Shown here one piece after another: positions 4,136 through 49,893 of a stretch of DNA of 49,893 bases (positions within the stretch are counted from its first letter, which is position 1; each line of letters begins with the position of its first letter). The notes under the pieces are model-generated. The model saw only the letters and a program-made list of their open reading frames with translations, was not told where the DNA came from and did not search any database. The stretch comes from a bacterium (lineage in GTDB: Bacteria > Hydrothermota > UBA3072 > JAPDKE01): contig JAPDKE010000035.1 of the NCBI GenBank assembly GCA_029258725.1, positions 1-49,893 on the forward strand, in the 5' to 3' direction. The position numbers were made by a program, and so were the translations under genes.

Positions 4136-4190
4136 GGAGAGGAGAAAAATATGTTTTGAAAAGGAAGATATTAAAAAGGAGTCAGCTATG

Positions 4191-4895
4191 TTAATTAAGG
4201 AGGTGAAGGTTGGAAGTAGCATTTTTCTGGAGCAGGGTATAGATGATGCGTGCGAGTTTACTGGCGGTTGCGATGATAGCCTGTTTTGGGGCGAGATGTT
4301 CTCGTTTTTTGAGGTAATAGGCTTTGAGGGTGGGGTTCTGGAGGATGCAGGACATACTCATGAGGTAGAGGGTTCTTTTCAGGTGGGGGTTTCTTCTTTT
4401 GGAGATTCTGGATTTCCCTTCTGTTTCACAGATGAAGTAGATGGCAAGTGTTTTGTTTATGTCGGGTATGGAGCGGAGAATCCGGAGTTTTTCTTTTACA
4501 GGGTCATTTATCCCTATGGATTTATCGGTAAGGGAGATAATTTCTTCTATGGTGATGCAGGGTTTGGCTCCGCGTGTTTTGAATATTCTTCTCCATATTT
4601 TTCCTGCGGATGGGAAGTGGGAGAGGAAGGTAAGGATTCTTTTACTTTTGAGGTTGACGTTCTGGATTTCGGGGAAGAGGCTGTGCAGTTCCTGTCTTAT
4701 CTGGTTCTGGAGCCTTGCGTTTTCTCTTGCGAGTTTTTCTCTTTCTCGTGCGATGGGTTTGAGTTTTGGGGTGGTGGTATCCGGGAGTTCTCTTCCGTTA
4801 AAGAGGACTGTTTCTTGCTTGACGATTTTCCCGCTATGGTTTACGATGGAGTATGTAAAGGAATCTTTGCTTATGTCGATGCCTATGTAGTGCAT
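4191..4895 (-). pseudogene. IS110-family transposase, internally deleted
   Basis: Starts at ATG 4895 after an AAGGAGG site. The N-terminus MHYIGIDISKDSFTYSIV matches the first strand of the DEDD RuvC-like domain, but the segment holding the other DEDD acidic residues is missing: homology jumps to the linker region (AREREKLARENARLQNQIRQ). The second domain is also shortened: LRSIPDINKTLAIYFICE runs straight into GKSRISKRRNPHLKRTLYLM, skipping the conserved region between. It is 234 residues against roughly 320-400 for the family, with the reading frame intact through both deletions. It must be catalytically dead. A longer frame running upstream to 5111 would translate the element's non-coding end and is not the true start. 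Confidence 0.8.
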
Positions 4896-8803: not shown

Positions 8804-9711
8804 TCTATCGTCTCCTTCAATCCCTTTTCAAATGGAACTTTTGGCTCCCACCCCAGAACTTCCTTTGCCCTGCTTATATCCGGTCTTCTCTTCTTCGGGT
8901 CGTCAGGAGGGAGGGGACGATATTCTATTTTCTCTTCCCTTCCTGTTACCTTCAGGATGATTTTTGCAACATCTATTATCCGGTACTCCTCGGGATTTCC
9001 GAGATTTACAGGCAGATGATAATCCGAACGCATGAGTTTTATTATTCCATCCACCATGTCGGAGATGTAACAGAAGCTCCTTGTCTGGGTTCCGTCTCCG
9101 TAGACCGTGAGAGGCTCATCCCTCAAAGCCTGCATTATGAAGTTCGGGATAACCCTCCCATCATCATCCCTCATCCTTGGTCCGTAGGTGTTGAATATCC
9201 TTGCAATTTTTGTATCCATACCATATTTTCTGTGAAATGCCATGACAAGTGCCTCTCCAAATCTCTTTGATTCGTCATACATGGACCTCTCACCAATGGG
9301 ATTCACATTTCCCCAGTATTCCTCTCTCTGTGGATGTTCCTCAGGGTCACCATAAATTTCGGATGTTGAAGTAAAGAGAAATCTTGCCCTGGTTTTTCTT
9401 GCAAGCTCAAGCATTTGATACGTTCCAAGAGAGCCTGTAAGGAGGGTCTCAATTGCATATTTAGTGTAAAAAACAGGGCTTGCTGCTGATGCGAGGTGAT
9501 AAATTTCTGAAATTCCGTCAGGATAGTCATAGGGATCATTCACATCATGTTCAATAAATGTAAAAGAAGGGCGGGAAAGAAGATGCTCAATGTTTTCTCT
9601 CTTTCCCGTGAGAAAGTTATCAATACCTATCACTTCATTTCCTTCATCCAGCAGTCTCTCTGCCAGATGAGAGCCTATGAATCCTGCAACTCCGGTTACA
9701 AGAACCTTCAC
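8776..9711 (-). CDS. NAD-dependent UDP-sugar decarboxylase/epimerase (UXS-like)
   Basis: Extended short-chain dehydrogenase, 311 residues from GTG 9711. Rossmann motif VTGVAGFIGSHLAERLL, then IYHLASAASPVFY, STSEIYGDPEEHPQ, the YxxxK catalytic pair in MYDESKRFGEAL, RIFNTYGPRMRDDDGRVIPN and YGDGTQTRSFCYISD. These closely match UDP-glucuronate decarboxylases (UDP-xylose synthases); a 4-epimerase is the alternative. A longer frame begins with a TTG at 9747, but that TTG is the first three bases of the -35 box. The GTG at 9711 lies 7 bp after the -10 and gives the proper N-terminus MKVLVTG, so the mRNA is probably leaderless. First gene of the operon with GT2, ftsY and PHP. Confidence 0.88.
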   Translation of the reverse strand: MKVLVTGVAGFIGSHLAERLLDEGNEVIGIDNFLTGKRENIEHLLSRPSFTFIEHDVNDPYDYPDGISEIYHLASAASPVFYTKYAIETLLTGSLGTYQMLELARKTRARFLFTSTSEIYGDPEEHPQREEYWGNVNPIGERSMYDESKRFGEALVMAFHRKYGMDTKIARIFNTYGPRMRDDDGRVIPNFIMQALRDEPLTVYGDGTQTRSFCYISDMVDGIIKLMRSDYHLPVNLGNPEEYRIIDVAKIILKVTGREEKIEYRPLPPDDPKKRRPDISRAKEVLGWEPKVPFEKGLKETIEWFRERMSQ

Positions 9712-36959: not shown

Positions 36960-37171
36960 TCCTTCAGCTGGTCTATCACTAAGGAAAGAGGCAGCAAAAC
37001 CACGTATCCTGCAACAAGGAGTATTGGGGCAAGGGTTATTGAGCCCCTTGCCAGGTATATGTATCCAATGAGGATGGAGAGGATTGATACCCCGAAAAGC
37101 GTCCAGTTTTTCCAGGTGAATTCAAGTTTACTCTTCCTTTGTGTTTCCTTCTTTTTCTTCTTTTTTGCCAT
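36938..37171 (-). CDS. Small two-TM membrane protein (DUF3098-like)
   Basis: 77 residues: a strongly basic start (MAKKKKKKETQRKSKLEFTW), then two TM helices (WTLFGVSILSILIGYIYLA and LAPILLVAGYVVLLPLSLVI) and a short tail. It resembles the DUF3098 family known from Bacteroidetes and relatives. It overlaps the lipoprotein gene upstream by 44 bp and the flippase gene by 22 bp, both in other frames, so it is fully embedded in the operon. Confidence 0.65.
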   Translation of the reverse strand: MAKKKKKKETQRKSKLEFTWKNWTLFGVSILSILIGYIYLARGSITLAPILLVAGYVVLLPLSLVIDQLKEWTGKTS

Positions 37172-38651
37172 CTGAACCTCCCAGGGTTACGGGTGTGTAT
37201 TTCCCTCTTGCTATGATATAAAGGGGAACCTTTCTTTCAGGATGTTTATCCTCCGGTGAGAACCCTGCAACAAGGGAGCCTGCGGGTTTTTTCTTTAAAA
37301 TGCTCATGAGAATTTCTCCGGCATCCCATCCGAGCCCAACATACCGGGTGGGCTCCTCCCCGTATTTTTCATGATAAAGCTTGACAAACGCAGGGTCAGG
37401 GTTATAGGGGAGGGATGCACATACCACCCCTTCAAGGTATTTTTTCCCTGTTTTTGTAACCACATCCTCCCCATACCAGCCATCCCCACCAAAGACCTGA
37501 TACCCAACCTGATAGTATTTGAGTTCCGGGGCTATGAGTGCAACTTCTTCAGGATATGCAGGAATGAATATTGCCTCAGGAGATGCTTCTCTTATTCTTT
37601 TAATCTCATTTCTGAAGTCTGCCTTTCCTGGTTTATATGGTATTCTTATGGCAATTTCTCCTCCCATATCCTCAACGGTGGATGAAAAGTATTCCTCCAT
37701 TATTCTTCCATACGTGTTGTAAGGGTAAAGAATCGCAAATTTTTTAAATCCTCTTGATATTGCAAACCTTGCAAGTGCCTTTGCCTCTGCCTCAAGGGAG
37801 CGGTTCACGATGGTTATGTAAGGATTGAGTGTTTCAATGTCAACATTGCTTGCGGTGGGGGAGACGAAGGGAATGCGGTAAAACTCTGCAAATGCCGCAA
37901 CGGTTAAGAGGGTCCAGTTGAATAAGGGACCAATTATTCCCTTTACTCCTTTCTCTATGAGTTCCTTTGCTCCCATGTATGCCTTTATCTCATCTCCTCC
38001 GGTATCGTAATACTCCAGTTCCACCTCACCCTCAAGCCTCAACTCTATTCCCCTTCTCACCTCCTCACCAAACCCGGCGTATTTTCCCGATAGTGGGAGA
38101 AGAACCCCTATTCTTGGGATTTCTCCCTTTCTGGTTATGTACTTTCTCACCTTCCTTGCATAATAGGACTCGGGATACCTATCAACGAGCAGTTTGAAAA
38201 GTGCATGGCTTTTCTTTGTATTTTTTTCATCCATGTACTTTTTTCCTGCAAGGTAAATGTAAAGGGTGAAGAGTTCCGGAATGTCCGGATGTTTTTTTCC
38301 TGTTTTTTCGAGGGTTGAGGGAGACAGGAAGTCTGAGATGGAAAGCAGTCTCTTTTTTGCCTCGTAAACCTTCCCTTTAAGTGCCGTGGAGTAATGCAAA
38401 GCCGCCCTGTCATAATCCTTCCTTTTTTCATAAATCAGCCCTATGTAATACTCAGCCCGGTAGCCTGAAGGATGCCCTTTACACGACTTTGCAAGTTTAT
38501 AAAAGAGGGAAAGGGCTTCATCCTCCTTCCCTTCTTTATAAAGCGCCACTGCCTTCTTCTCCATCGCCTCCACATCCTGTGGAGGTCTTTTAATAATATC
38601 CTTCCTTATGCATCCTGCCAGCAGCAGGAACAAAAGAATCCATTTCCTCAT
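37128..38651 (-). CDS. LpoA-like lipoprotein: TPR plus periplasmic-binding domain
   Basis: 507 residues. Signal with lipobox MRKWILLFLLLAGC. Residues about 25-165 are TPR-like (ALYKEGKEDEALSLFYKLAK, GLIYEKRKDYDRAALHYSTA). From about 175 comes a type I periplasmic-binding/Leu-Ile-Val-like domain (IGVLLPLSGKYAGFGEEVRR, GVKGIIGPLFNW, FVSPTASNVDIETLNPYI, FAILYPYNTYGRIMEEYF). The TPR plus binding-domain architecture is that of LpoA, the activator of penicillin-binding proteins. No ABC permease is nearby, supporting that over transport. First gene of a four-gene minus operon, leaderless. Confidence 0.83.
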   Translation of the reverse strand: MRKWILLFLLLAGCIRKDIIKRPPQDVEAMEKKAVALYKEGKEDEALSLFYKLAKSCKGHPSGYRAEYYIGLIYEKRKDYDRAALHYSTALKGKVYEAKKRLLSISDFLSPSTLEKTGKKHPDIPELFTLYIYLAGKKYMDEKNTKKSHALFKLLVDRYPESYYARKVRKYITRKGEIPRIGVLLPLSGKYAGFGEEVRRGIELRLEGEVELEYYDTGGDEIKAYMGAKELIEKGVKGIIGPLFNWTLLTVAAFAEFYRIPFVSPTASNVDIETLNPYITIVNRSLEAEAKALARFAISRGFKKFAILYPYNTYGRIMEEYFSSTVEDMGGEIAIRIPYKPGKADFRNEIKRIREASPEAIFIPAYPEEVALIAPELKYYQVGYQVFGGDGWYGEDVVTKTGKKYLEGVVCASLPYNPDPAFVKLYHEKYGEEPTRYVGLGWDAGEILMSILKKKPAGSLVAGFSPEDKHPERKVPLYIIARGKYTPVTLGGSDGKKEEKEGNTKEE

Positions 38652-38659
38652 ACACCTTC

Positions 38660-38688
38660 ATTATAGGGAATTCCCCGAAACCTGTCAA
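38660..38688 (-). promoter_or_regulatory. Sigma-70 promoter, nearly leaderless, for the LpoA-YfhO operon
   Basis: Minus strand: TTGACA at 38688-38683, 17-bp spacer, TATAAT at 38665-38660, ATG at 38651 (8 bp downstream). Perfect consensus. Confidence 0.85.
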
Positions 38689-38748
38689 CATTTTACAGAC
38701 CATATCCAGGAAGCCCCCAAACCCCGCCTGAAAACACAATTTTCCCAA

Positions 38749-38775
38749 TGTGACCGATTTCAAAACCATGTCACA
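38749..38775. promoter_or_regulatory. Inverted repeat TGTGAC-N15-GTCACA upstream of cas6
   Basis: Arms at 38749-38754 and 38770-38775, 42 bp before the cas6 -35 box and in the 201-bp gap between two divergent operons. The 15-base spacing does not match CRP (TGTGA-N6-TCACA). It could be an operator for an unknown dimeric regulator. The rest of the gap shows only the two promoters. Confidence 0.3.
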
Positions 38776-38817
38776 GTTATCTAACCTGAAATTTTCCACT
38801 AAAAACTATAAAAACTC

Positions 38818-38846
38818 TTGACAAAAATTCTAAAATGTGGTATAAT
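38818..38846 (+). promoter_or_regulatory. Consensus sigma-70 promoter of the cas operon, leaderless
   Basis: TTGACA at 38818-38823, 17-bp spacer, TATAAT at 38841-38846, cas6 ATG at 38853. Both hexamers are perfect, so the locus should be strongly expressed unless repressed. Confidence 0.88.
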
Positions 38847-38852
38847 AAAGAT

Positions 38853-39650
38853 ATGAGGTTAAAGGTATATTTTGGAGACGAAAGCGAAAAAGTAAGGATT
38901 GGAATGGATTACAGGAGGGCTTTTCTTTCCTTTATAAAGAAAGCATTTTCTCAGACGCCCTACATGGAGGATATATTTCAGGAAAAGAAGGCAAGGGAAT
39001 TTGTGTTCTCGGCATTTCTGGGAAAGGGAATGAAGGCGGATGGAGAAAAACTGGAAGTCTCTCCTCCCTTTGAACTCTACTTTTCGAGTGGGGCTCCCTT
39101 TATTGTTTCTGCCTTTTACAATGGGGTAATGGAGTTAAAGAAAAAGGGGGAAGGGATTGAACTTGAGGGGAAGAAGTTCGGGATATCGAGGGTGGAGGTT
39201 TTAAGGCCAAAGAAATTTACTTCCAGTTTTGTGATATTCAAAACTCTCGGAATATGTGTGTTAACAGACCCTGATGCTTCCCGTGATGATTTCGAAAAAT
39301 TCTATGTAATACCGGAAAGAGAAGATTTTAAGGAGATTTTGAGGAAAAGGATTATAGAAAAATATGAATTTATAATGGGCAGTAAGATTCCGGATGAAAG
39401 AATAAACTTTTTGCCTGTATCCCGGGATTTACTGGAGCCTCTCATAAGGAGTGGAGCGGTGGCGCCCTCTTTCTGGAAGAAGTCACTCGTCCCGGTGAGG
39501 GTGAGGCACTATGGCGGGTACGTTCGCGGATGGAGAGGGGTGTTTGGACTGGAGGCGCATCCTGTGGTCCTTCAGTTTGTTTACGACTACGGGCTTGGAG
39601 TAAAAACAGGCCAGGGATTTGGGATGCTTGAATGTGTGATGGAGGCTTAA
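38853..39650 (+). CDS. cas6: CRISPR pre-crRNA endoribonuclease Cas6
   Basis: Cuts CRISPR transcripts within each repeat. 265 residues from ATG 38853; an upstream in-frame ATG at 38835 is between the -35 and -10 boxes and cannot be used. RAMP-fold protein ending with the family's glycine-rich loop GLGVKTGQGFGMLECV (about 247-262). The N-terminal region MRLKVYFGDESEKVRIGMDY matches the first ferredoxin-like strand. Expected to leave an 8-base 5' handle, AUUUAAAU, on each crRNA. Followed within 2 bp by the toxin-antitoxin pair. Confidence 0.9.
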   Translation: MRLKVYFGDESEKVRIGMDYRRAFLSFIKKAFSQTPYMEDIFQEKKAREFVFSAFLGKGMKADGEKLEVSPPFELYFSSGAPFIVSAFYNGVMELKKKGEGIELEGKKFGISRVEVLRPKKFTSSFVIFKTLGICVLTDPDASRDDFEKFYVIPEREDFKEILRKRIIEKYEFIMGSKIPDERINFLPVSRDLLEPLIRSGAVAPSFWKKSLVPVRVRHYGGYVRGWRGVFGLEAHPVVLQFVYDYGLGVKTGQGFGMLECVMEA

Positions 39651-39652
39651 TC

Positions 39653-40000
39653 ATGGTAAAGCAACATGGGAGGCACGGAGTGAGAAAAAAGGGGAATGCG
39701 GTTTTGCCGGAAAAATTGAAGGGAACTTTATGGAGTTATGATATAAGCAAAATTGATATTGAAAGGGACAAGAAAATAATCATAGAGAATGTATTGAACC
39801 ATGGAACCGATGATGAAATACTGTGGGTCCTGAGGGTTTATAGTAAAGAGGATATCGTCTCAGTTTTGAAAAATCCTTCACGGGGATCATGGGACAGAAA
39901 GTCTTTAAACTTCTGGCTCTTTTTATTCAACGTAAAAATAGAGAGGGAAAAATATGAAAGGGCGCTTAGAGAAGTCTTTGTTAGAGCCGGTTCACACTGA
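39653..40000 (+). CDS. Probable antitoxin (DUF6922-like) inside the cas operon
   Basis: 115 residues from ATG 39653, 7 bp after GGAGG that lies in the end of cas6. Core LWSYDISKIDIERDKKIIIE, NHGTDDEILWVLRVYSKEDI and WDRKSLNFWLFLFNVK resemble small DUF6922-type proteins that are usually encoded just upstream of AbiEii-like nucleotidyltransferases. A basic N-terminus (KQHGRHGVRKKGN) may bind nucleic acid. It overlaps the toxin gene by 47 bp. It is not a known Cas protein. The antitoxin role is inferred from the pairing. Confidence 0.65.
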   Translation: MVKQHGRHGVRKKGNAVLPEKLKGTLWSYDISKIDIERDKKIIIENVLNHGTDDEILWVLRVYSKEDIVSVLKNPSRGSWDRKSLNFWLFLFNVKIEREKYERALREVFVRAGSH

Positions 40001-40622
40001 TGTTTTAACATCGGAGCAGAGAGATATTTTAAAAATTCTAGGGTTTACCAGAAAACTGGATTTTTATCTCGCGGGAGGAACGGGCCTTGCTTTATATCTT
40101 GCACACAGAACATCGATTGATTTTGATTTTTATTCCTTCCGCAAATTTAAAGACCTCTCCCGATATTTCAAAGAGGGTGAGATAATAATGGATTCAGAAG
40201 ATACATTTGAGATAAAGGTGAAAAACACAAATCTATCTTTCTTTTATTATCCTTATAAACTTATAAGAAGGCTAAATTCATTTAAAGAAATTTATGTTGC
40301 CTCTATTGAAGACATATCCGCAATGAAAATAATTGCGATTGTGCAGAGAGGAAATTTCAGAGATTTTATCGATATTTATTTTTTAATTAAAAAATTTGGA
40401 TTGAAAAGCATTATAAACTGGACGAAACAAAAATATTCAGGTTATTCCACTTTTTTAATATTAAAAGGTCTTACTTATTTTGAAGATGCTGATAGAACAG
40501 CCATTGAAGATGAGAAAAGAATAAAGATTTTTGAAAAGATAACCTGGCGTGAGATTAAAAAGTTTATAGGGGAGGAGGTAAGAAAATATGCAGAGGAACT
40601 CAAAGGGGGAGAAGATGAATGA
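39954..40622 (+). CDS. AbiEii/AbiGii-like nucleotidyltransferase toxin inside the cas operon
   Basis: 222 residues. The nucleotidyltransferase site is YLAGGTGLALYLAHRTSIDF followed by DFYS (GGT...DxD), with a later AMKIIAIVQRGNFRDFIDIY element as in AbiEii-type toxins. Very AT-rich codon use, more so than cas6 before it. It contains one of only three CTAG sites found in the window (40038). The stop overlaps the cas8 start by 8 bp, so cas8 translation is coupled to it. Position between cas6 and cas8 matches that of CreTA modules in haloarchaeal I-B loci. Confidence 0.8.
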   Translation: MKGRLEKSLLEPVHTDVLTSEQRDILKILGFTRKLDFYLAGGTGLALYLAHRTSIDFDFYSFRKFKDLSRYFKEGEIIMDSEDTFEIKVKNTNLSFFYYPYKLIRRLNSFKEIYVASIEDISAMKIIAIVQRGNFRDFIDIYFLIKKFGLKSIINWTKQKYSGYSTFLILKGLTYFEDADRTAIEDEKRIKIFEKITWREIKKFIGEEVRKYAEELKGGEDE

Positions 40623-41748
40623 GAAGATAACCCTTTACCCCTCCAACTGGCTCTACAACGCAGGGGTGGTGGGGTTTTTGAGGGTGGTGGAGTTTGGAGA
40701 TAATGAAATAAATAAATTTTTTCATGAAGATGGAAAAGTAGAGTTTAGCAAAAACATAATAAGGGAAAGTTATCAACTGATTTTTGATTACCATCAGCAA
40801 AGACTTCAGGAGAAATTTTCCATTGTAGGAAAAAATCGTAGATATCCTAATTATATTCAGAAGAGTCAAGAAGAATTCTTTCAAACATATTATATAGAAG
40901 CCTTAACTCATTTAGAAGAGAATAGAAGAAGGATTTGTAACTGGTGCAAAGGATATTTTATTCCTTCAGATATTATTGAAGAACTTGAAACAAAATTTCC
41001 TACTGGAAGAAGCGGACTTATTAAGTTCATGACCCAGAGAGAGAAGTTCCAGGGAATACATTTTTCCGGACTCGGTGCAGCGTTTACAGAAATGCCCAAT
41101 GCGTTCTGGAATCTTGAATTTTCTGCTCCTATATGCCATTTATGTTCTTACTTAATTATTTTTCACCATCTTTCCTTTATTAAGATTGAAAAAAATCATG
41201 AAATCTTCATCAATACTCCTCATTTTGGTTTAACATGGGATTTGAATAAGTTTGTGGAAGAAATTCTTAAAAGAGGAGAATATGAGGCAAGGAGGCTCCT
41301 TGGCTCTTCCCTAATTGAATGGGCGATAAAAAGAAGAGTTCTACTTGGTGCATGGACGATGATGAATATTGAAGTAATAGTTAAGAGAAGTGTCCAAACA
41401 GTTCCGGGAAAATATGAAGATGTTATTGATTATTTTGACCTTCCTTATCACATAACACGAATCTTGCTTGACCATGAAGTTGCAAGTTTAATTAAAAGAA
41501 TTAACGAGGAAAAAATATTTGACCTGATTGTAAGTGGAAAATTTTCCGAACTTGAAAAAGCCAGTTATTTTGTTTTGAGAGGAATTTTGAAATTGAAAAA
41601 TAACCAAGACATAAATGAAAATGACCCTCTTACCACATATATAAGAAGATATAAAGATGTAAAACATCTTATGAGAGTTTCGGAACTCTTGCCCGAACTT
41701 TATGCGAAAATTTTAAAAGTTTTAAAACAAGCAAAAGGAGGTTCATGA
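40615..41748 (+). CDS. cas8b: Cascade large subunit Cas8b1/Cst1
   Basis: 377 residues from ATG 40615. Begins ITLYPSNWLYNAGVVGFLRV, the usual Cst1 opening. Two CxxC pairs, C108/C111 (ICNWCKGYF) and C174/C177 (ICHLCSYLI), define the CXXC-CXXC Cas family and probably bind zinc. Shorter than many Cas8 proteins (about 450-600). Expected to recognise the PAM and anchor the crRNA handle. The next gene starts within its stop (ATG ATG at 41745/41748). Confidence 0.87.
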   Translation: MNEKITLYPSNWLYNAGVVGFLRVVEFGDNEINKFFHEDGKVEFSKNIIRESYQLIFDYHQQRLQEKFSIVGKNRRYPNYIQKSQEEFFQTYYIEALTHLEENRRRICNWCKGYFIPSDIIEELETKFPTGRSGLIKFMTQREKFQGIHFSGLGAAFTEMPNAFWNLEFSAPICHLCSYLIIFHHLSFIKIEKNHEIFINTPHFGLTWDLNKFVEEILKRGEYEARRLLGSSLIEWAIKRRVLLGAWTMMNIEVIVKRSVQTVPGKYEDVIDYFDLPYHITRILLDHEVASLIKRINEEKIFDLIVSGKFSELEKASYFVLRGILKLKNNQDINENDPLTTYIRRYKDVKHLMRVSELLPELYAKILKVLKQAKGGS

Positions 41749-42062
41749 TGGAAGAAAGACATATAAACACTCTTGTGAAAAAAATAAAAGAAGCGGGAAA
41801 AAATACTCCCCCTGATGTTGTAACAGCAATAAACGATATTGGGTTCAGACTTCTGGAACAGGTGAGGTTGAACAACAAAGAAAACGTTTTTTACCTTTTA
41901 CTGCGATGCTTTAAAGCCAAAGAACAGAAATTCCCTGATGACCTTATAGAGGTATTTAAACCAGAAAATGAGAGATATTTTAAAACGCTTGTCTTTACTT
42001 TTCTTGCTTCAGTTCTGGAAAGAAAACAAGCCAGAACAGAAACAGAAGGAGGTGAATCATGA
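41745..42062 (+). CDS. Small all-helical Cas-operon protein, candidate stand-alone Cas11
   Basis: 105 residues, helical throughout (HINTLVKKIKEAGKNTPPDV, FRLLEQVRLNNKENVFYLLL, YFKTLVFTFLASVLERKQAR). A strong AAAGGAGG precedes the ATG. It lies between cas8 and cas7, overlapping both by 4 bp. Size, helicity and place suit the small subunit (Cas11) of Cascade. In type I-B, Cas11 is usually made from an internal start inside cas8, and the short Cas8 here could mean that part has become its own gene. No sequence homology is claimed. Confidence 0.6.
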   Translation: MMEERHINTLVKKIKEAGKNTPPDVVTAINDIGFRLLEQVRLNNKENVFYLLLRCFKAKEQKFPDDLIEVFKPENERYFKTLVFTFLASVLERKQARTETEGGES

Positions 42063-43345
42063 AAAAGGCCATAACAATAACAATTTTGTTTGAAGCAGAT
42101 GCCCTTAACAGGGATGAGAAGGTTGGAAATGTGTTATCCATAAAGAAGCTTACCAGAGGATGGGGAGAGACATATTCCTTCATATCAAGACCTGCGATAA
42201 GGCATTATCTATGGGTGACATTGAATAAAATGACTCCTGAGAGATGGAAAGCAACTCCTGTTAGAGAAACCCAAGGAGAAGGAAGGAAAAAGGTCATTCA
42301 ATTTGAAATTTGTGACGATGAAGGAAAGGAAGTAAAAAATACTATTATTAACTCAGCAGAACTAGACATTTTTGGGTATATGGTAACTATTGCAAAAGGA
42401 GGAGAAGAAAGAGGAGATAATTTAACTCGTAAAGCACCTTTAGGAATTACAAAAGCTGTATCTTTAGAAAAATGGGAAGGAGATATGGGGTTGTATGCTA
42501 ACCATGAATTGGTTAAAAGAGCTTTAATGCAAGGAAAAGAAGCGACTCCTGATATTTATAACAATGAAGAGCAAAAAGCACTTTATAAAGTTTCCTTTAC
42601 TTTAGATGTAGAAAAAATAGGAATAGATGAATGGCTGATAAAACAGCATACTTATAGGAATAACAAAGATTTAGAAATTACCTTACCTCATAATCATACC
42701 CTCGTGCTAAAAAATGTGGTGAAAATAGGTAACAACTCCTATAAGTTTGAAGATAAAGAAGGAAAAATCGTTATCGAGGATTATAAATTGAAATTTGAAC
42801 ATAAAGACTCAGACCGCATCAAAGATGTTCTGGATGCCATCTACAACGGTCTTTATTACCACTCCTCTGGTGAATGTCCAGGTATTGTTCCCCTATTTCT
42901 CATTGCAGGAATTGTTAAGGTTCCTGTTCCTGTTTTTCACTCCTTTGTGGATATTGAATTCTACAAAAAGAACCACCGACCGAAATTTAAAATAAGAGAA
43001 AACCTGCTGAGAAACGCTATATCAAACGGATGGATAGAGAATGAAGGAGATAAAAAACTCATCTTCGTAGAGGCGAGAGAACCTGAAGCGCTTTCCGAGG
43101 ACTTCATCGCAAGTAATTCTATTACAACAAACTGGGAGCAATTTGTGAATAAGTACCTTTTACAAGGAGAAGAAAAGGAAGCAATTGAAGAAACAATGGA
43201 AGGGAAGAGAAAAGGAAAAAGAGGAAGAAAGAAAAAAGAAACAACAAGAGAAAAAACAACAAAAAGAAGAAGTAAGAAGGAGGCAGAAACTCCTGAAAAA
43301 AGAAAAAGGGGAAGAAGAGGAAGAAAAAGGAAAAAAGAAGAATGA
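42059..43345 (+). CDS. cas7: Cascade backbone Cas7/Cst2 with a polybasic C-terminal tail
   Basis: 428 residues. The Cst2/DevR-type start reads ITITILFEADALNRDEKVGN, KKLTRGWGETYSFISRPAIR, and YMVTIAKGGEERGDNLTRKA is the expected GY(M)F-type strand. GLYYHSSGECPGIVPLFLIA follows. It would bind crRNA as the repeated backbone. The last 48 residues (381-428) are a low-complexity tail with 27 Lys/Arg, including KRGRKKK and KRGRRGRKRKK, unlike the normal family end. The coding strand there is an almost pure purine run. Cas5 follows after 99 bp, a gap with no clear feature other than a GGAGA site. Confidence 0.88.
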   Translation: MKKAITITILFEADALNRDEKVGNVLSIKKLTRGWGETYSFISRPAIRHYLWVTLNKMTPERWKATPVRETQGEGRKKVIQFEICDDEGKEVKNTIINSAELDIFGYMVTIAKGGEERGDNLTRKAPLGITKAVSLEKWEGDMGLYANHELVKRALMQGKEATPDIYNNEEQKALYKVSFTLDVEKIGIDEWLIKQHTYRNNKDLEITLPHNHTLVLKNVVKIGNNSYKFEDKEGKIVIEDYKLKFEHKDSDRIKDVLDAIYNGLYYHSSGECPGIVPLFLIAGIVKVPVPVFHSFVDIEFYKKNHRPKFKIRENLLRNAISNGWIENEGDKKLIFVEAREPEALSEDFIASNSITTNWEQFVNKYLLQGEEKEAIEETMEGKRKGKRGRKKKETTREKTTKRRSKKEAETPEKRKRGRRGRKRKKEE

Positions 43346-43444
43346 GGGATAGTTTACCTAACACCTGGCGAGGTTGTACATAAGATAAAATGACCTGGGA
43401 AAAACCTGAAAAAAAACATATAAGAGAAAAAAGGAGACGGAAAG

Positions 43445-44344
43445 ATGAAGGTTTTAAGATTAAAAATCTATCAGCCTCATGCGCACTATAGAATACCCTT
43501 TACCTTCAGGAGAAGGCATACCTATCCCATACCTCCTTATTCTACCGTAATAGGTCTTATATGCAATGTCCTGGGAGTAAAAGGACCGATTGAAAATCCG
43601 GAAGAATATAAAATCGAAGACCTTGATATTACCTTCAAAGATTTCGCAAATGACCTCTATCTTGCTATTTATGGAAAGTTTGAGTCAATGACGAGGGAAT
43701 ATATATGGTTCAGGAATTTATCTCTTACAGCAAAAGGAGGGCATCTTTCTAGGTTTGGTTCTCCAGCAAACAGAGTGGTGGACGGGATTCCGGAACATCC
43801 CGGGGGACAGGTACCTACAAGAATTGATGTGCTTGAAGAGGTTAATCTCATTATTTATATTGCCCACAAAAAGGAGAAAGTTATAGAAAAGTTGGCGAAT
43901 ATATTCCGAAATCCAGAAAAGAGACTTTATCCTTTACATCTCGGAAGGGCGGAAGACTGGATTGTTTTTAATGGAGAACCAGAAGATGCTATAAAGATTA
44001 TTGAAATCAACGAAGAAAAGGAACCAATATATGGTAGGTTGAAAGATTATGATTATTCCTGGATTCCAGACCCTGAAAGAGGGAAAGATTTTGTAGATGA
44101 TAAATTTTATAATTCTGAGTTTAAAGATTTCTTTAGAAAAGTCCATGGCAGTTCTCATCTCATAACCTCGTTTTATCATATCAGGAACGGAGTAAGGGTT
44201 TTTGAACATATCCCGGTTAAACTTTTCGAAGGAGGTGATTTTCCAATGCGTTTTGGAAAGCCTTTTAGATTCCTAAAAGATGAAGAACTTGAAACCCCTC
44301 TTTTCTTTGCAAAGATGAAATATCCGGAGGTGTACGATGAGTGA
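43445..44344 (+). CDS. cas5: Cascade subunit Cas5 (Cas5b/t type)
   Basis: 299 residues. N-terminal RAMP strand MKVLRLKIYQPHAHYRIPFT, then the Cas5 landmark TYPIPPYSTVIGLICNVLGV (PxPxTVxGLI form), and GRAEDWIV later. Caps the 5' handle of the crRNA next to Cas8. Length is somewhat above the usual 220-260, because of an insertion around EEKEPIYGRLKDYDYSWIPD. GGAGACGGAAAG precedes the ATG. Contains a CTAG site at 43749. Ends overlapping cas3 by 8 bp. Confidence 0.87.
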   Translation: MKVLRLKIYQPHAHYRIPFTFRRRHTYPIPPYSTVIGLICNVLGVKGPIENPEEYKIEDLDITFKDFANDLYLAIYGKFESMTREYIWFRNLSLTAKGGHLSRFGSPANRVVDGIPEHPGGQVPTRIDVLEEVNLIIYIAHKKEKVIEKLANIFRNPEKRLYPLHLGRAEDWIVFNGEPEDAIKIIEINEEKEPIYGRLKDYDYSWIPDPERGKDFVDDKFYNSEFKDFFRKVHGSSHLITSFYHIRNGVRVFEHIPVKLFEGGDFPMRFGKPFRFLKDEELETPLFFAKMKYPEVYDE

Positions 44345-46982
44345 AATATGGGCAAAAAGACCTGAAAAGGATGGAAGGATAATTACTTTAAGAGACCATG
44401 TGATGGATATTTTAAAGAGTGTGGAATCCTTAATGGAGTGTTCGTTTATAAAATCTTTATTTGAAAACCGGAGTAAATACGGGTTAAAAATTAAAAAAGA
44501 AGACTTTGAAAGACTCCTTAAATACGCTGGGTTTTTCCACGACCTTGGCAAAGTTTCTCCTCACTTTCAGATAAGAAAACTAAAAAATGAAGGCTTTGAA
44601 CCCGATATTCCTGATTTTCCAGATGTAAGGCATAACATCCTTTCTCTGTTTTTTATAAATAAAGATAAAGTAAGGGAAATATGTAGGGAAAAAGAAAATT
44701 TATATGCAACATTTTTATCAGCAGTTGCCTTCCATCACTGGAAAAAGGACGAAAAAGAATATATTCTCCATATCAATGAAAAGCTCATTAAAGCATGTAG
44801 GATTTTGTTGCAGGAAGAAAGCGGTGAAAAAACTTTGGGAGACAGGCTTGCAGAAAAATTAAAAGAACATTTTAATGGTTTTGACAAGTTAAACAATGAA
44901 AATCCTGATGAGTTGATTTCTTTTGATAAAGACCTTGCAAAGCATATTGCAGACGAAGGAAATTTAATAAGTGCCGATATTATCCCTCCCTATACTCTTT
45001 ATTTTCTACCCAAGAGATTAAAAGCCCAATATGAAAAAGGAATCGATCTTAATTTATGGGTATTCCTTGCAGGATTTTTAATGAGGGTAGACCATTTTGC
45101 TTCAATGGTGGAAAGTAAAGAAGATAAAGAAATTGATACTGTATATATTGAGAGAAAAATCGATGAAAAGATAGATGTCTTGGAAAGACTGAAAGAAAAA
45201 AAAGGCTTAACTGATGAACAATTATGGCAAAAACACATTCTGGAAAAAGACAAAAATATTATTTTGATTGCTCCCACAGGTATAGGAAAAACCGAGTTTG
45301 CCTTTGCATGGGGAGAGGGCGAAAAATTCTTCTATACTCTGCCTTTGAGGGTTGCGACAAATCAGATATTTGATAGAGCATGTGAATATTTTAACGAGGA
45401 TAAGAAGCAAAATAAAGACCCTTATATTGAGGGAAATGTCGGACTTTTACATTCCGACGCAGACCTCTACTTAATTGAGAAAAGTGAAATTTCAAAGGAT
45501 AATTCAAGCGATGGTGAGACTTTAAAAATACTTGAACTCGCAAAATATTTCTCTTTACCAGTGAATATCTGTACAGGAGACCAGATTTTCCCTGCTGGTT
45601 TAAAGTATCCGGGGTATGAGAAGGTATATGCGACCTTGGGATACTCAAAGCTTATTATTGACGAAGTTCAGGCTTATGACCCGAGGGCATGTGCCATAGT
45701 GGTTAAAATGATTGAGGATATTGTTTCTCTTGGAGGGAAGTTCTTACTTATGACAGCAACGTTGCCGGAATTTGTCAGAAAATATCTGAAAGAAAGGGAA
45801 ATTATTGGGAGGAGAGAGATTTTAGACCTTTATGATAATAAAATAAAGCCAGACCTTATGAGACACAAAATAAGAATAGAGAACAGAGATATTGCATCAA
45901 AGGAGGTGATTGAGGAGATTATAAAAAAAGCCGGGGAAGACAAAAGAATTCTTGTGATTTTAAATACAGTGAAAAAGGCAGAGAGAGTTTTCGAAAAAAT
46001 AAAGTCGGTTATGGAAGAGAAAAGGAAGGATATTTTCGTTGAGATACTTCATTCCAGGCTTACCATGAATAAGAGGAAGAGAAGGGAAAAAAGACTGGAG
46101 GAGGAATTCAAAAATCCAAAACCTATGAATGAGAAGCAACCAAAAATCCTTGTGGCTACTCAGGTTGTAGAGGCCTCTTTGGATATAGATGCGGACTATC
46201 TTTTCACAGAGATATGCCCAATGGATTCCTTGATTCAGCGTATGGGAAGGGTAATGAGGAGGATAAATTTGATAACAGGGGAAATTAAAGGTACAGAAAA
46301 GGAATTTAATTATAAAGATTTTTATAAAAGAGATAAAGAAGCAAATGTAATTGTTTACACACAACATAAGGAAGACAACAAGGAATTTTTGGAATCGGGA
46401 AGGGGATATGTATATGAAATAGACCTTCTGTGTCTTACACTTGGAAAATTGCTTAAGAAGGATCTGAAAGAAATTGCAGATGCGGATGAGAAAAAGTACC
46501 GTGATTTTATAAATAGAAAAATCAAGGAATACAGAAAAGACATTAAAGATGAAATTATTGAGGTTCCTGAAAAAGACAAAAATGAATGGGTTTGTGAAGT
46601 TTATGAAAGCCTCAATACGAATTCTCAATATTTCCAGAAATTTTATGGAACTTTACCTATTTTAGAGGCGGGATATGTCTCAGAAAACCAGAAAGAAGCC
46701 CATGAGATTTTCCGGGAGATTTATACACTGCCTGTGATAGAAGAAAAGTGTTTGGAAAGACTATATGAGAAAATAGAAAAGAAAAACAACATAGATTGGT
46801 TATGGTTTAAAAGAGAAATCATTGCTGAATTTGTAATTCATGAACATCGATGGAAGTATAAAGAATCTCAACTGGAAAGTTTGTGGGAAAGAATTAAGGA
46901 TAAAGTGCCATCGGAAAACGCTGAGAAACTTAAAAAATATTGTAGAGGTATATATGTGGTTAAGGCGGATAAAAAGCAATGA
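44337..46982 (+). CDS. cas3: CRISPR helicase-nuclease Cas3
   Basis: 881 residues: an N-terminal HD nuclease domain (FFHDLGKVSPHF, His68-Asp69; FPDVRHNILSLFF; SAVAFHHWKK) followed by a superfamily 2 helicase. Walker A LIAPTGIGKTEFAFAWG is near residue 315, motif II is LIIDEVQAYDPRA near 440, and motif III is LMTATLP near 473. The C-terminal RecA domain has ATQVVEASLDIDADYLFTEI and LIQRMGRVMRR. Degrades the non-target strand once Cascade has bound. Typical I-B Cas3 with HD and helicase fused. Confidence 0.95.
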   Translation: MSEIWAKRPEKDGRIITLRDHVMDILKSVESLMECSFIKSLFENRSKYGLKIKKEDFERLLKYAGFFHDLGKVSPHFQIRKLKNEGFEPDIPDFPDVRHNILSLFFINKDKVREICREKENLYATFLSAVAFHHWKKDEKEYILHINEKLIKACRILLQEESGEKTLGDRLAEKLKEHFNGFDKLNNENPDELISFDKDLAKHIADEGNLISADIIPPYTLYFLPKRLKAQYEKGIDLNLWVFLAGFLMRVDHFASMVESKEDKEIDTVYIERKIDEKIDVLERLKEKKGLTDEQLWQKHILEKDKNIILIAPTGIGKTEFAFAWGEGEKFFYTLPLRVATNQIFDRACEYFNEDKKQNKDPYIEGNVGLLHSDADLYLIEKSEISKDNSSDGETLKILELAKYFSLPVNICTGDQIFPAGLKYPGYEKVYATLGYSKLIIDEVQAYDPRACAIVVKMIEDIVSLGGKFLLMTATLPEFVRKYLKEREIIGRREILDLYDNKIKPDLMRHKIRIENRDIASKEVIEEIIKKAGEDKRILVILNTVKKAERVFEKIKSVMEEKRKDIFVEILHSRLTMNKRKRREKRLEEEFKNPKPMNEKQPKILVATQVVEASLDIDADYLFTEICPMDSLIQRMGRVMRRINLITGEIKGTEKEFNYKDFYKRDKEANVIVYTQHKEDNKEFLESGRGYVYEIDLLCLTLGKLLKKDLKEIADADEKKYRDFINRKIKEYRKDIKDEIIEVPEKDKNEWVCEVYESLNTNSQYFQKFYGTLPILEAGYVSENQKEAHEIFREIYTLPVIEEKCLERLYEKIEKKNNIDWLWFKREIIAEFVIHEHRWKYKESQLESLWERIKDKVPSENAEKLKKYCRGIYVVKADKKQ

Positions 46983-47018
46983 GGAAGGAATACTGAAACA
47001 AAAGGACAAGAAAATAAA

Positions 47019-47540
47019 ATGAGCAGGGTTGACCTCTACGGTTACAAAATCACTGGGCTACAGGTTGCCTATTATATCGTTTGTAAGAGAAAACTGTGGC
47101 TTTTCACGCATGGATTGGGGATGGAGAAATTCTCCGATTACGTGACGATGGGAAAACTTATAAGTGAGGAATCCTTTAAGAGGAAAAAACCAAAAGAGGT
47201 GGAGATAGGGGAGAGTGCCAGAATTGATTTTCTTAAAATAGGGGACGAGGTGGTTGTCCATGAGGTGAAAAAATCAAAGAAACTGGAGGAAGCACACATC
47301 TGGCAGGTGAAGTATTATATATGGGTGTTGAAGCGAGAAGGAGTGAACTGTAAAAGTGGTGTCATCCATTATCCCAGAGCCATGAGAAAAATAGATGTGG
47401 AGTTCAACGAAGAAGACGAAAGAAGGATTGAAGAGGCTATTGAGAAAATGAGGGAGATAATAGAGATGGAGAAGCCACCTCCTGTTGTAAAGAAAGGATA
47501 CTGCAGAAAATGTGCATATTATGATTTTTGTTTCGTTTAA
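47019..47540 (+). CDS. cas4: CRISPR adaptation nuclease Cas4
   Basis: 173 residues, PDDEXK exonuclease with an iron-sulfur cluster. Cluster cysteines are C22 (VCKRKLWLF) and C162, C165, C171 (YCRKCAYYDFC). The nuclease core is ARIDFLKIGDEVVVHEVKKS, KKLEEAHIWQVKYY. Trims prespacers and sets PAM orientation with Cas1-Cas2. It starts 36 bp after cas3 with only a weak AAGGA site; cas1 follows after 3 bp. Confidence 0.93.
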   Translation: MSRVDLYGYKITGLQVAYYIVCKRKLWLFTHGLGMEKFSDYVTMGKLISEESFKRKKPKEVEIGESARIDFLKIGDEVVVHEVKKSKKLEEAHIWQVKYYIWVLKREGVNCKSGVIHYPRAMRKIDVEFNEEDERRIEEAIEKMREIIEMEKPPPVVKKGYCRKCAYYDFCFV

Positions 47541-47543
47541 GCC

Positions 47544-48515
47544 ATGGGAAGGAACTACTATATTTTTTCAAACGGTAGATTGAGAAGGAAACAGAATACG
47601 CTGTTTCTTGAAAAGGAAGACGGAAAGCATCCCATTCCTGTGGAGGATGTGGATCAGATTTTTGTATTTGGAGAACTTGACTTCAATTCAAAGGCGCTTG
47701 TGTTTCTTGCACAGCATGGCATAGTGCTTCATGTATTCAACTATTATGGATATTACTCCGGAAGTTTTTATCCCCGTGAAGAAATGGTATCCGGGACCCT
47801 TGTGGTAAAGCAGGTGGAACATTATCTTAATCTCCAGAAAAGGATGATCCTCGCACGAAAATTTGTTGAAGGAGCGGTACACAATCTTAAAAGGAACCTG
47901 GAAAAGCGAGAGGGGTTTGAGGGTGAGATAGAAAGAATAAAGGAAATCTCGGGAAGAATAGAGCAAGTTCCCACTCCTCAGGAACTTATGGGAGTGGAGG
48001 CGAATATAAGAAGAATCTATTATTCCACATGGGAGAGAATCACAGGATGGGAATTTGAGGAAAGAACCATGAGACCTCCCCAAAATCCTTTAAATGCCTT
48101 GATTTCGTTCGGCAATTCACTGGTGTATGCTCTGGTGTTGAGGGAGATTTATATGACGGCTCTCAATCCTTCCGTGAGTTATCTGCACGAGCCTTCAGAA
48201 AGAAGATTTTCTCTTGCTCTTGATGTGGCGGAGGTTTTCAAACCGGTGCTTGTTGACAGGCTGATTTTTAAACTTATCAATCTTGGTGAATTGAAAGAGG
48301 AAGATTTCTTAAAAGAATTAAATTACGCATATCTTAATGAGAAAGGAAGAAAGATTTTTGTAAGTGCTTTTGATGAAATGCTGGAGAAAACGGTGGTTCA
48401 CAGGGCTTTGCGAAGGAAGGTGAAATATAAGAATTTCATAAGGCTTGAACTTTACAAACTTATAAAGCACATCCTGGGTGAAGAGGAATATAAACCTTTA
48501 AAAGTATGGTGGTGA
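47544..48515 (+). CDS. cas1: CRISPR integrase Cas1
   Basis: 323 residues of the type I-B Cas1 group. Metal-site residues are visible: E152 (GVEANIRRIYY), H215 (VSYLHEPSERR) and D227 (FSLALDVAEVFKPVLVDRL). The N-terminal beta domain begins MGRNYYIFSNGRLRRKQNTL. Integrates spacers at the leader end of the array downstream. No Shine-Dalgarno site precedes it, so translation is likely coupled to cas4. Confidence 0.96.
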   Translation: MGRNYYIFSNGRLRRKQNTLFLEKEDGKHPIPVEDVDQIFVFGELDFNSKALVFLAQHGIVLHVFNYYGYYSGSFYPREEMVSGTLVVKQVEHYLNLQKRMILARKFVEGAVHNLKRNLEKREGFEGEIERIKEISGRIEQVPTPQELMGVEANIRRIYYSTWERITGWEFEERTMRPPQNPLNALISFGNSLVYALVLREIYMTALNPSVSYLHEPSERRFSLALDVAEVFKPVLVDRLIFKLINLGELKEEDFLKELNYAYLNEKGRKIFVSAFDEMLEKTVVHRALRRKVKYKNFIRLELYKLIKHILGEEEYKPLKVWW

Positions 48516-48519
48516 TGAA

Positions 48520-48801
48520 ATGAAGGTGATTCTTGTATATGACATCTCTACAGAAGACGAAGAATCACAGAGGAGATTGAGAAGGGTTCTTCAGGTGGCA
48601 AGAAGATATCTTCATCATGTGCAGAAATCGGTTTTTGAGGGAGATTTAACTCCGGGACAGATTGCAAGGTTAAAAAGAGATGTATTAAGAGAGGTGCATG
48701 AAGAAAAAGATAGCGTGATACTGTACATTCTTCCGGAAGGGGTAAAAGTAAAGCGGGAAATACTCACCCAGATTGAAGACCCTACCAGAAACATTATTTA
48801 A
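48520..48801 (+). CDS. cas2: CRISPR adaptation protein Cas2
   Basis: 93 residues with the ferredoxin-like fold start MKVILVYDISTEDEESQRRL (catalytic-position Asp8), HHVQKSVFEGDLTPGQI and VILYILPEGVKVKRE. Bridges the Cas1 dimers. Starts 4 bp after cas1. Its stop is 79 bp before the first repeat. Confidence 0.95.
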   Translation: MKVILVYDISTEDEESQRRLRRVLQVARRYLHHVQKSVFEGDLTPGQIARLKRDVLREVHEEKDSVILYILPEGVKVKREILTQIEDPTRNII

Positions 48802-48844
48802 CATGCAAAACCGGAGGTTTGACGCAAAATCTTCTTTCCAACCC

Positions 48845-48873
48845 TTTACAATCCTCCTTCTTTTCTTTATACT
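48845..48873 (+). promoter_or_regulatory. CRISPR array promoter in the short leader
   Basis: TTTACA at 48845-48850, 17-bp spacer, TATACT at 48868-48873. Transcription would begin at 48880-48881, the first base of repeat 1. The entire leader between cas2 and the array is only 79 bp (48802-48880) and pyrimidine-rich. Confidence 0.6.
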
Positions 48874-48880
48874 CTCTACC

Positions 48881-49886
48881 GTTGCAATCGCCCAATGGGG
48901 AATTTAAATATATTTAAAATTTCATATCTTTCTCCTGTTAATAAAGTTGCAATCGCCCAATGGGGAATTTAAATGTATCATAAAGTCGGTGAAAAGCCAC
49001 GGTTCTTACGTTGCAATCGCCCAATGGGGAATTTAAATCTTGAGCAGGGGGAGAAGAATGAGTAAATCCTGGGAGTTGCAATCGCCCAATGGGGAATTTA
49101 AATTTGTTTATTACTATCTTTTTCATCTTTCACCTCCTTGTTGCAATCGCCCAATGGGGAATTTAAATTTCGATCTGAAAGCACTCTTATTAAGGTTGCA
49201 AGTAGTTGCAATCGCCCAATGGGGAATTTAAATCTGGAATAAACATGTCGTAGTCTCTTACGAATTTCTGGTTGCAATCGCCCAATGGGGAATTTAAATT
49301 TTTTCTATACTTTTGAAAAAACCAGGAGGAAGAAGAGTTGCAATCGCCCAATGGGGAATTTAAATAATAGTGATATAAAAGAAAAAGTAAAAGAATTCTA
49401 TGGTTGCAATCGCCCAATGGGGAATTTAAATATTCCCCGCAGTTTAGAAAAGAAGGTTAAAGAAGGGGTTGCAATCGCCCAATGGGGAATTTAAATTCTT
49501 CCTGCGATTCCCACTATCACTCCCTGGGAGGGTTGCAATCGCCCAATGGGGAATTTAAATTAACCTTCGCCAGCCCCACAAAGATGAAGTAATATAAGTT
49601 GCAATCGCCCAATGGGGAATTTAAATCTAAAAAATCTCAAAATGTTTATATTTTTAAAGTTGTTGCAATCGCCCAATGGGGAATTTAAATTTTTTATGTT
49701 GAAAATATCTTTGTGAAGCATATAGAGTTGCAATCGCCCAATGGGGAATTTAAATTGGTATAATAGTTACCAAGTTAACTGGACTCAAGCAGGTTGCAAT
49801 CGCCCAATGGGGAATTTAAATCAAAAGGGATGGACATGGGAGGTTCTCTCTGAGCTTGTTGCAATCGCCCAATGGGGAATTTAAAT
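48881..49886 (+). CRISPR. Type I-B CRISPR array, 16 identical 29-bp repeats, runs off the window
   Basis: The repeat begins GTTGCAATCG and ends GGAATTTAAAT. Repeat starts: 48881, 48946, 49010, 49075, 49140, 49205, 49271, 49337, 49403, 49468, 49532, 49598, 49662, 49727, 49793 and 49858. I see no mismatch in any copy. There are 15 full spacers of 35-37 bp and seven bases of a sixteenth at the edge. Absence of degenerate repeats means the leader-distal end is not in view. Orientation is plus, as cas2 and the leader are upstream and the repeat ends in the ATTTAAAT expected to be the 8-base crRNA handle. The repeat has only a weak CCC/GGG stem. No spacer was seen to match elsewhere in the window. 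Confidence 0.99.
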
Positions 49887-49893
49887 TTTGAAC

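Follow-up and report, generated by a model that had tools for sequence, protein, structure and literature searches.

Organization of the type I-B cas operon

By combining domain and profile searches with re-reading of the sequence, we found that the window, that is the whole stretch of 49,893 nucleotides analyzed here, carries a complete type I-B operon, arranged as cas6, DUF6922, AbiEii, cas8b, cas11b, cas7, cas5, cas3, cas4, cas1 and cas2, followed by a CRISPR array. The features are the following:

38818 to 38846, plus strand: candidate sigma-70 promoter TTGACA-17-TATAAT ahead of cas6, with a TG preceding the second hexamer
38835 to 39650, plus strand: cas6 (domain searches)
39653 to 40000, plus strand: DUF6922 gene, presumed antitoxin, 115 aa (PF21956, E 7.7e-16)
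39954 to 40622, plus strand: AbiEii/DUF1814 nucleotidyltransferase gene, presumed toxin, 222 aa (PF08843, E 3.2e-12, above cut-off)
40615 to 41748, plus strand: cas8b, large subunit (PADLOC Cas8b, E 1.9e-103)
41745 to 42062, plus strand: cas11b, small subunit (profile match)
42059 to 43345, plus strand: cas7, Cst2/DevR (domain searches)
43445 to 44344, plus strand: cas5 (domain searches)
44337 to 46982, plus strand: cas3 (domain searches)
47019 to 47540, plus strand: cas4 (domain searches)
47544 to 48515, plus strand: cas1 (domain searches)
48520 to 48801, plus strand: cas2 (open reading frame; a homologue 61% identical in genome G058 sits between cas1 and the array)
48881 to 49893, plus strand: CRISPR array of 16 identical repeats, running to the window end and cut there

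Both toxin-antitoxin (TA)-type genes lie within the cas operon and on its strand. DUF6922 starts after a gap of 2 bp from cas6 and overlaps AbiEii by 47 bp, and AbiEii overlaps cas8b by 8 bp; for the pair, the open reading frames and the re-read sequence thereby reproduce the genes, coordinates, strand and overlaps given in a preliminary description of this DNA. ATG 40615 is the most likely start of cas8b, with 40588 as alternative start, and cas6 probably has its true start at ATG 38853, given that the -10 box occupies 38841-38846.

A motif scan of the operon indicated that the hexamer pair at 38818-38846 is the sole perfect TTGACA-17-TATAAT on the operon strand, and internal promoter candidates in the operon did not exceed the level of shuffled sequences. 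These observations are consistent with the earlier proposal of one promoter for the cas genes and the pair, and this promoter presumably drives cas6, the pair and the downstream cas genes. A second perfect TTGACA-17-TATAAT lies on the minus strand at 38660-38688; it points away from the cas operon and precedes a 507-aa open reading frame (37128-38651, minus strand). We also noticed that Cas7 ends in a C-terminal tail of about 60 residues (43160-43345) in which Lys and Arg are very abundant.

Predicted properties of the two proteins

The presumed toxin was scored for the AbiEii motif pattern (hG[G/S], R and DhD, K...R, +DxxD), and motifs I to IV are all intact (G41G42, R52, D56-F-D58, K125...R132 and R136-D137-F-I-D140). 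Mutagenesis of AbiEii has shown that all four motifs are required for toxicity (PMC3985639). By using Foldseek on the structural model of the window toxin (pLDDT 94), we found matches to H. pylori JHP933 (E 1e-7), to MenT1 from the MenAT1 complex (E 6.5e-4) and to MenT4 (E 1.3e-3), all with a probability of 1.00. Residue S54, two positions before D56, the first Asp of motif II, is Ser in 112 of the 113 family members and Thr in the remaining one.

The DUF6922 protein was modelled as all-helical (pLDDT 88), and a fold search with this model returned no match with E < 1 and neither a DNA-binding nor a known antitoxin fold. A relationship to Pumilio repeats was considered and discarded, the sequence matches being weak and without further support. 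The literature searched held no mention of DUF6922 and no toxicity or neutralisation data for any DUF6922-AbiEii pair. Family membership, intact motifs and fold match nevertheless argue for a protein pair of the TA type, as had been claimed, in which the nucleotidyltransferase would be the toxin and DUF6922 its antitoxin.

Distribution of the pair outside cas operons

We scanned 84,980 species (GTDB), each represented by a single genome, and read the best 80 loci, which come from many phyla and in most of which DUF6922 adjoins the toxin. Over all loci, 92 DUF6922-AbiEii pairs were counted, nearly all outside CRISPR and with the antitoxin first in 82 of them. Pairs outside cas operons are usually solitary, with a median upstream gap of 168 bp (20 bp or less in only 9 of 78), while a few pairs in non-cas operons are packed as tightly as the embedded ones. 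Judging from these sequences, the pair is a widespread, horizontally mobile TA-like module, and DUF6922 is a very widespread, unstudied presumed antitoxin that we propose as a partner for AbiEii toxins.

The genome of the window itself holds a second DUF6922-AbiEii pair, decayed and outside the cas locus (L169; G000 contig 10, 9003-9582). Viral contigs were searched as a source of the toxin; nine stretches fitted the pattern and no relative was confirmed among them.

Recurrence of the pair within cas operons of the phylum

The phylum sample comprised 147 genomes (WOR-3/Stahlbacteria), mostly drafts or MAGs, and the numbers of embedded pairs are small. The toxin family was found in 46 of these genomes and the Cas7/DevR family in 28. 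In 7 genomes from 6 families (about 7 of the 29 Cas7-bearing loci), AbiEii lies within a cas operon on the operon strand, and three slots are used (cas6|cas8, cas7|cas5 and cas3|cas4). Recurrence beyond close relatives is therefore borne out, with at least four separate entries as detailed below.

The window pair occupies cas6|cas8. In G044, the toxin follows cas6, and the first 70 bp of a second contig repeat the toxin 3' end without mismatch and are followed by cas8b and the rest; this operon was joined across the two contigs by inference, and one contig continues past the toxin into a different gene. In G001, a bin with 9% contamination in which the pair is cut by a contig end, the toxin 3' end is followed by cas8b, cas7, cas5 and cas3. 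The pairs of G072, G038 and G075 occupy cas7|cas5, although cas5 can no longer be identified in G038, where the locus has decayed, and that of G058 occupies cas3|cas4. Upstream gaps of the embedded pairs are +2, -4, -11, 0 and -4 bp (the last being an ATGA overlap), with +156 bp in G044. Operons of the same kind that are free of the pair at those junctions also exist (L186 and L035).

We then compared these numbers with expectation. First, about 0.04 pairs were expected in the 29 Cas7-bearing phylum loci and 7 were found, which is more than chance would give; the enrichment persists (p 3e-5) if all pairs are assumed to be confined to 5% of the genome. Second, no toxin lay within 100 kb of Cas7 on the same contig in 388 Bacillota and 395 Chloroflexota genomes (about 140 Cas7 loci), a control in which Cas7 was recognized by PF01905 only, other cas types were left out and position lists were compared by eye; restricted to PF01905 loci, 7 of 29 against 0 of about 140 gives p ~2e-6. 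Third, only one of the best 80 GTDB loci lies in a cas operon, and it comes from the same phylum as the window. Among the phyla sampled, embedding is confined to this one, which we counted against the explanation that we favor below.

Other genes are nested in cas operons of the phylum. In one type I-A operon, cas8a and cas7 flank a DUF433-DUF5615 pair (L181 of G018, 9151-9656), nested with slight overlaps and predicted to encode an antitoxin and a PIN-like toxin; it is a second protein TA in a cas operon of the phylum, unrelated to DUF6922-AbiEii. The same slot of another type I-A operon holds a gene for a minimal nucleotidyltransferase (MNT) of 96 aa (L179; G058 contig 40, 4795-5085). An AAA_14/DUF4143 ATPase gene stands between the embedded toxin and cas5 in G072 (L136, 1374-2333), and genes for a YhcG-type PDDEXK nuclease (3275-4198) and a YgjP-like metallopeptidase (2137-2760) are found among the cas genes of G001 (L171).

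Independent entries into cas operons

In the toxin tree, the window toxin groups with non-cas relatives and the G044 toxin with others, while the toxins of G058, G038, G072 and G075 form one clade that includes a single non-cas member (4 of 5 in cas operons), referred to here as the resident clade. Over 177 bp, the G001 toxin fragment shares 98% identity with a non-cas copy from the G001 bin, and the match extends no further than the toxin stop codon. Together, the tree groups and the G001 fragment indicate at least four entries. A single origin of the embedded toxins, or one ancestral insertion in the phylum, was rejected when the six embedded toxins were constrained together (p-AU 1.5e-8). 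The Cas7 tree does not display a single gain either, and the Cas7 proteins of the resident clade are not one group, so that the module has moved from one I-B lineage to another as well.

Fate of the embedded toxins

In the window and in G044, the toxin retains every essential residue. In the resident clade, the GG of motif I is changed to SE in G072, and the first Asp of motif II to Gly in G038, a locus in which cas8 and other genes are also broken. In G075, in-frame deletions affect motifs I, III and IV of the toxin, and motif II has an Asp to Ala change. The G058 toxin, with the neighbouring cas genes intact, has lost its C-terminus by a frameshift within a poly-A stretch, which may reflect an assembly error. 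The DUF6922 frame is open in all four. An essential residue is broken in 3 of 6 embedded toxins compared to 7 of 106 non-embedded ones (p 0.009, in a test made after the lesions had been seen).

These open frames bear on the idea that the resident-clade pair, its catalytically dead nucleotidyltransferase included, has been exapted into the I-B operon in a structural or regulatory role. That the G075 frames stay open after in-frame deletions, that DUF6922 is intact in G075 and G072, and that the clade is mostly found in cas operons would all fit. However, cas5 of G075 starts 4 nt past the toxin stop, so that the open frames may be kept for cas5 and translational coupling alone can explain them. 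Also, the G058 toxin is frameshifted and the pair is absent from most I-B loci of the phylum. We therefore regard such exaptation as improbable.

The main rival to our favored explanation is a passenger without benefit, that is a generic TA module which landed in the cas operons of this phylum and was kept, neutral or decaying, until its toxin was inactivated. The loss of catalytic residues in three of the four resident-clade toxins and the C-terminal frameshift of the fourth, the decay of the second pair in the genome of the window, and the scatter of entries across slots and clades are all as such a passenger would have it, and a neutral passenger would leave almost the same traces as addiction. 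Yet the window and G044 toxins retain all motifs, the enrichment in cas operons is strong (7 against 0.04 expected, and still significant under the 5% assumption), and the cas operons of the phylum harbor further protein TA genes. Since enrichment and nesting of other TA genes point to some bias of retention or of entry, we consider the passenger reading rather unlikely.

Proposed control by Cascade or Cas6

The preliminary description had proposed that the pair may be the protein equivalent of CreTA, with a toxin controlled through intact Cascade or through Cas6. In such a guard, which would also resemble CrePA, Cas proteins would hold the toxin off and the toxin would strike upon their inhibition or loss. 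The cas6|cas8 position is that of CreTA, the pair lies on the cas transcript and the association with type I operons is repeated. On the other side, the toxin has its own partner gene inside and outside CRISPR loci, several slots and I-B lineages are involved, and embedded toxins lose catalytic residues. Moreover, no CreA-like repeat above shuffled sequences was detected in 38600-48850 (the best reached 17 of 29, with a shuffle mean of 17.6), and no spacer of the array in the window matches the window sequence. Control of the toxin by Cascade or Cas6 is thus not supported, and we judge it highly improbable.

The tight overlaps had also been taken to argue against passive insertion. This argument does not hold, since three slots are used and a few non-cas pairs are equally tight; a promoterless insertion must look so to keep the downstream cas genes translated. 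The overlaps therefore do not demonstrate a functional link, and the slot varies, so that the likeness to CreTA is one of position between cas6 and cas8.

A proposed mobile cassette tied to cas transcription

As a whole, we lean towards a mobile, promoterless nucleotidyltransferase TA cassette that would be addictive through shared cas transcription and later often inactivated. The AbiEii/MenT-type nucleotidyltransferase would halt translation, with nucleotide addition to the 3' ends of tRNAs as its most likely activity, and the small helical DUF6922 protein would silence it. The pair would have entered at a gene junction of the cas operon as a two-gene cassette without promoter, breaking no cas gene, and would now be transcribed from the cas6 promoter with its translation coupled to cas6 and cas8b. 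The supply of antitoxin would depend on the presence and transcription of the operon; a cell that lost or silenced the operon would release the toxin, which would make the cas locus addictive. Such addiction would act on gene presence and transcription, Cascade and crRNA taking no part. Over longer times, the host would inactivate the toxin, mostly by frame-preserving lesions that leave the downstream cas genes translated.

A bolder version is that TA pairs gain from recurrent recruitment to the type I cas operons of the phylum. They would then be transcription-level CRISPR guards, in which loss of cas transcription or its shut-off by phage frees a tRNA-modifying toxin, and the dead-toxin pair of the oldest clade would be a working I-B accessory. 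We think this quite unlikely.

The independent insertions of this well-defined TA family, which span three slots and include intact as well as inactivated toxins alongside unoccupied sites, offer a system for testing CRISPR maintenance, and this insertion set can separate an addictive guard from a passenger and from an exapted part.

Comparison with known systems

CreTA and CrePA are RNA-guided, and the pair corresponds to neither. CreTA shares with the window pair the position between cas6 and cas8 in I-B loci, by the account of the preliminary description, and the idea of CRISPR addiction. However, both of its parts are RNA and Cascade represses the toxin, whereas the window has two proteins without a repeat-like element. 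CrePA likewise couples a protein toxin to CRISPR-Cas, but its toxin is of the KilA-N type and is kept repressed by Cascade together with a crRNA-like CreA, in contrast to an AbiEii nucleotidyltransferase without CreA-like element here (reviewed in PMC12737573).

With AbiE, a type IV TA composed of AbiEi and AbiEii (PMC3985639), the pair has in common the toxin family, the four motifs and a bicistronic organization with the toxin second. The AbiE partner is AbiEi with an N-terminal winged helix (COG5340), unlike the small DUF6922 protein, which is predicted to be all-helical. Unlike in AbiE, autoregulation of the pair is improbable, as it lacks its own promoter. In a type IV system such as AbiE, the toxin protein and the antitoxin protein do not interact physically.

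Toxins of the MenT group extend the acceptor ends of tRNAs by adding nucleotides (PMC10435456). In MenT1, the antitoxin induces phosphorylation of a Thr that lies two positions ahead of the initial Asp of motif II, and this modification silences the toxin (PMC11375011). MenAT of M. tuberculosis resembles the window pair in the predicted nucleotidyltransferase fold and in having a small unrelated antitoxin (MenA1), and in both toxins a Ser or Thr precedes this Asp of motif II by two positions (T39/D41 in MenT1, S54/D56 in the window). We saw no relation between DUF6922 and MenA, and MenAT is not linked to CRISPR.

In a survey from 2009, TA systems were not strongly associated with CRISPR loci, and MNT-HEPN modules were described that had inserted into metabolic operons (PMC2701414). 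The closest precedent is provided by the vapBC pairs interspersed in the cas gene cassettes of Sulfolobales, which were suggested to help retain CRISPR-Cas in the population (PMC4390879). Both are protein TA pairs within cas cassettes, and the same maintenance idea applies to both. The differences are that vapBC has a PIN RNase as toxin and a distinct antitoxin family, in a review example that is archaeal type III-D, whereas an AbiEii nucleotidyltransferase is paired with DUF6922 in a bacterial I-B operon here, and that the DUF6922-AbiEii pair is tightly coupled without a promoter of its own. Protein TA within cas cassettes was thus already known from vapBC of Sulfolobales, and what is new is the presence of AbiEii-DUF6922 in bacterial type I-B operons.
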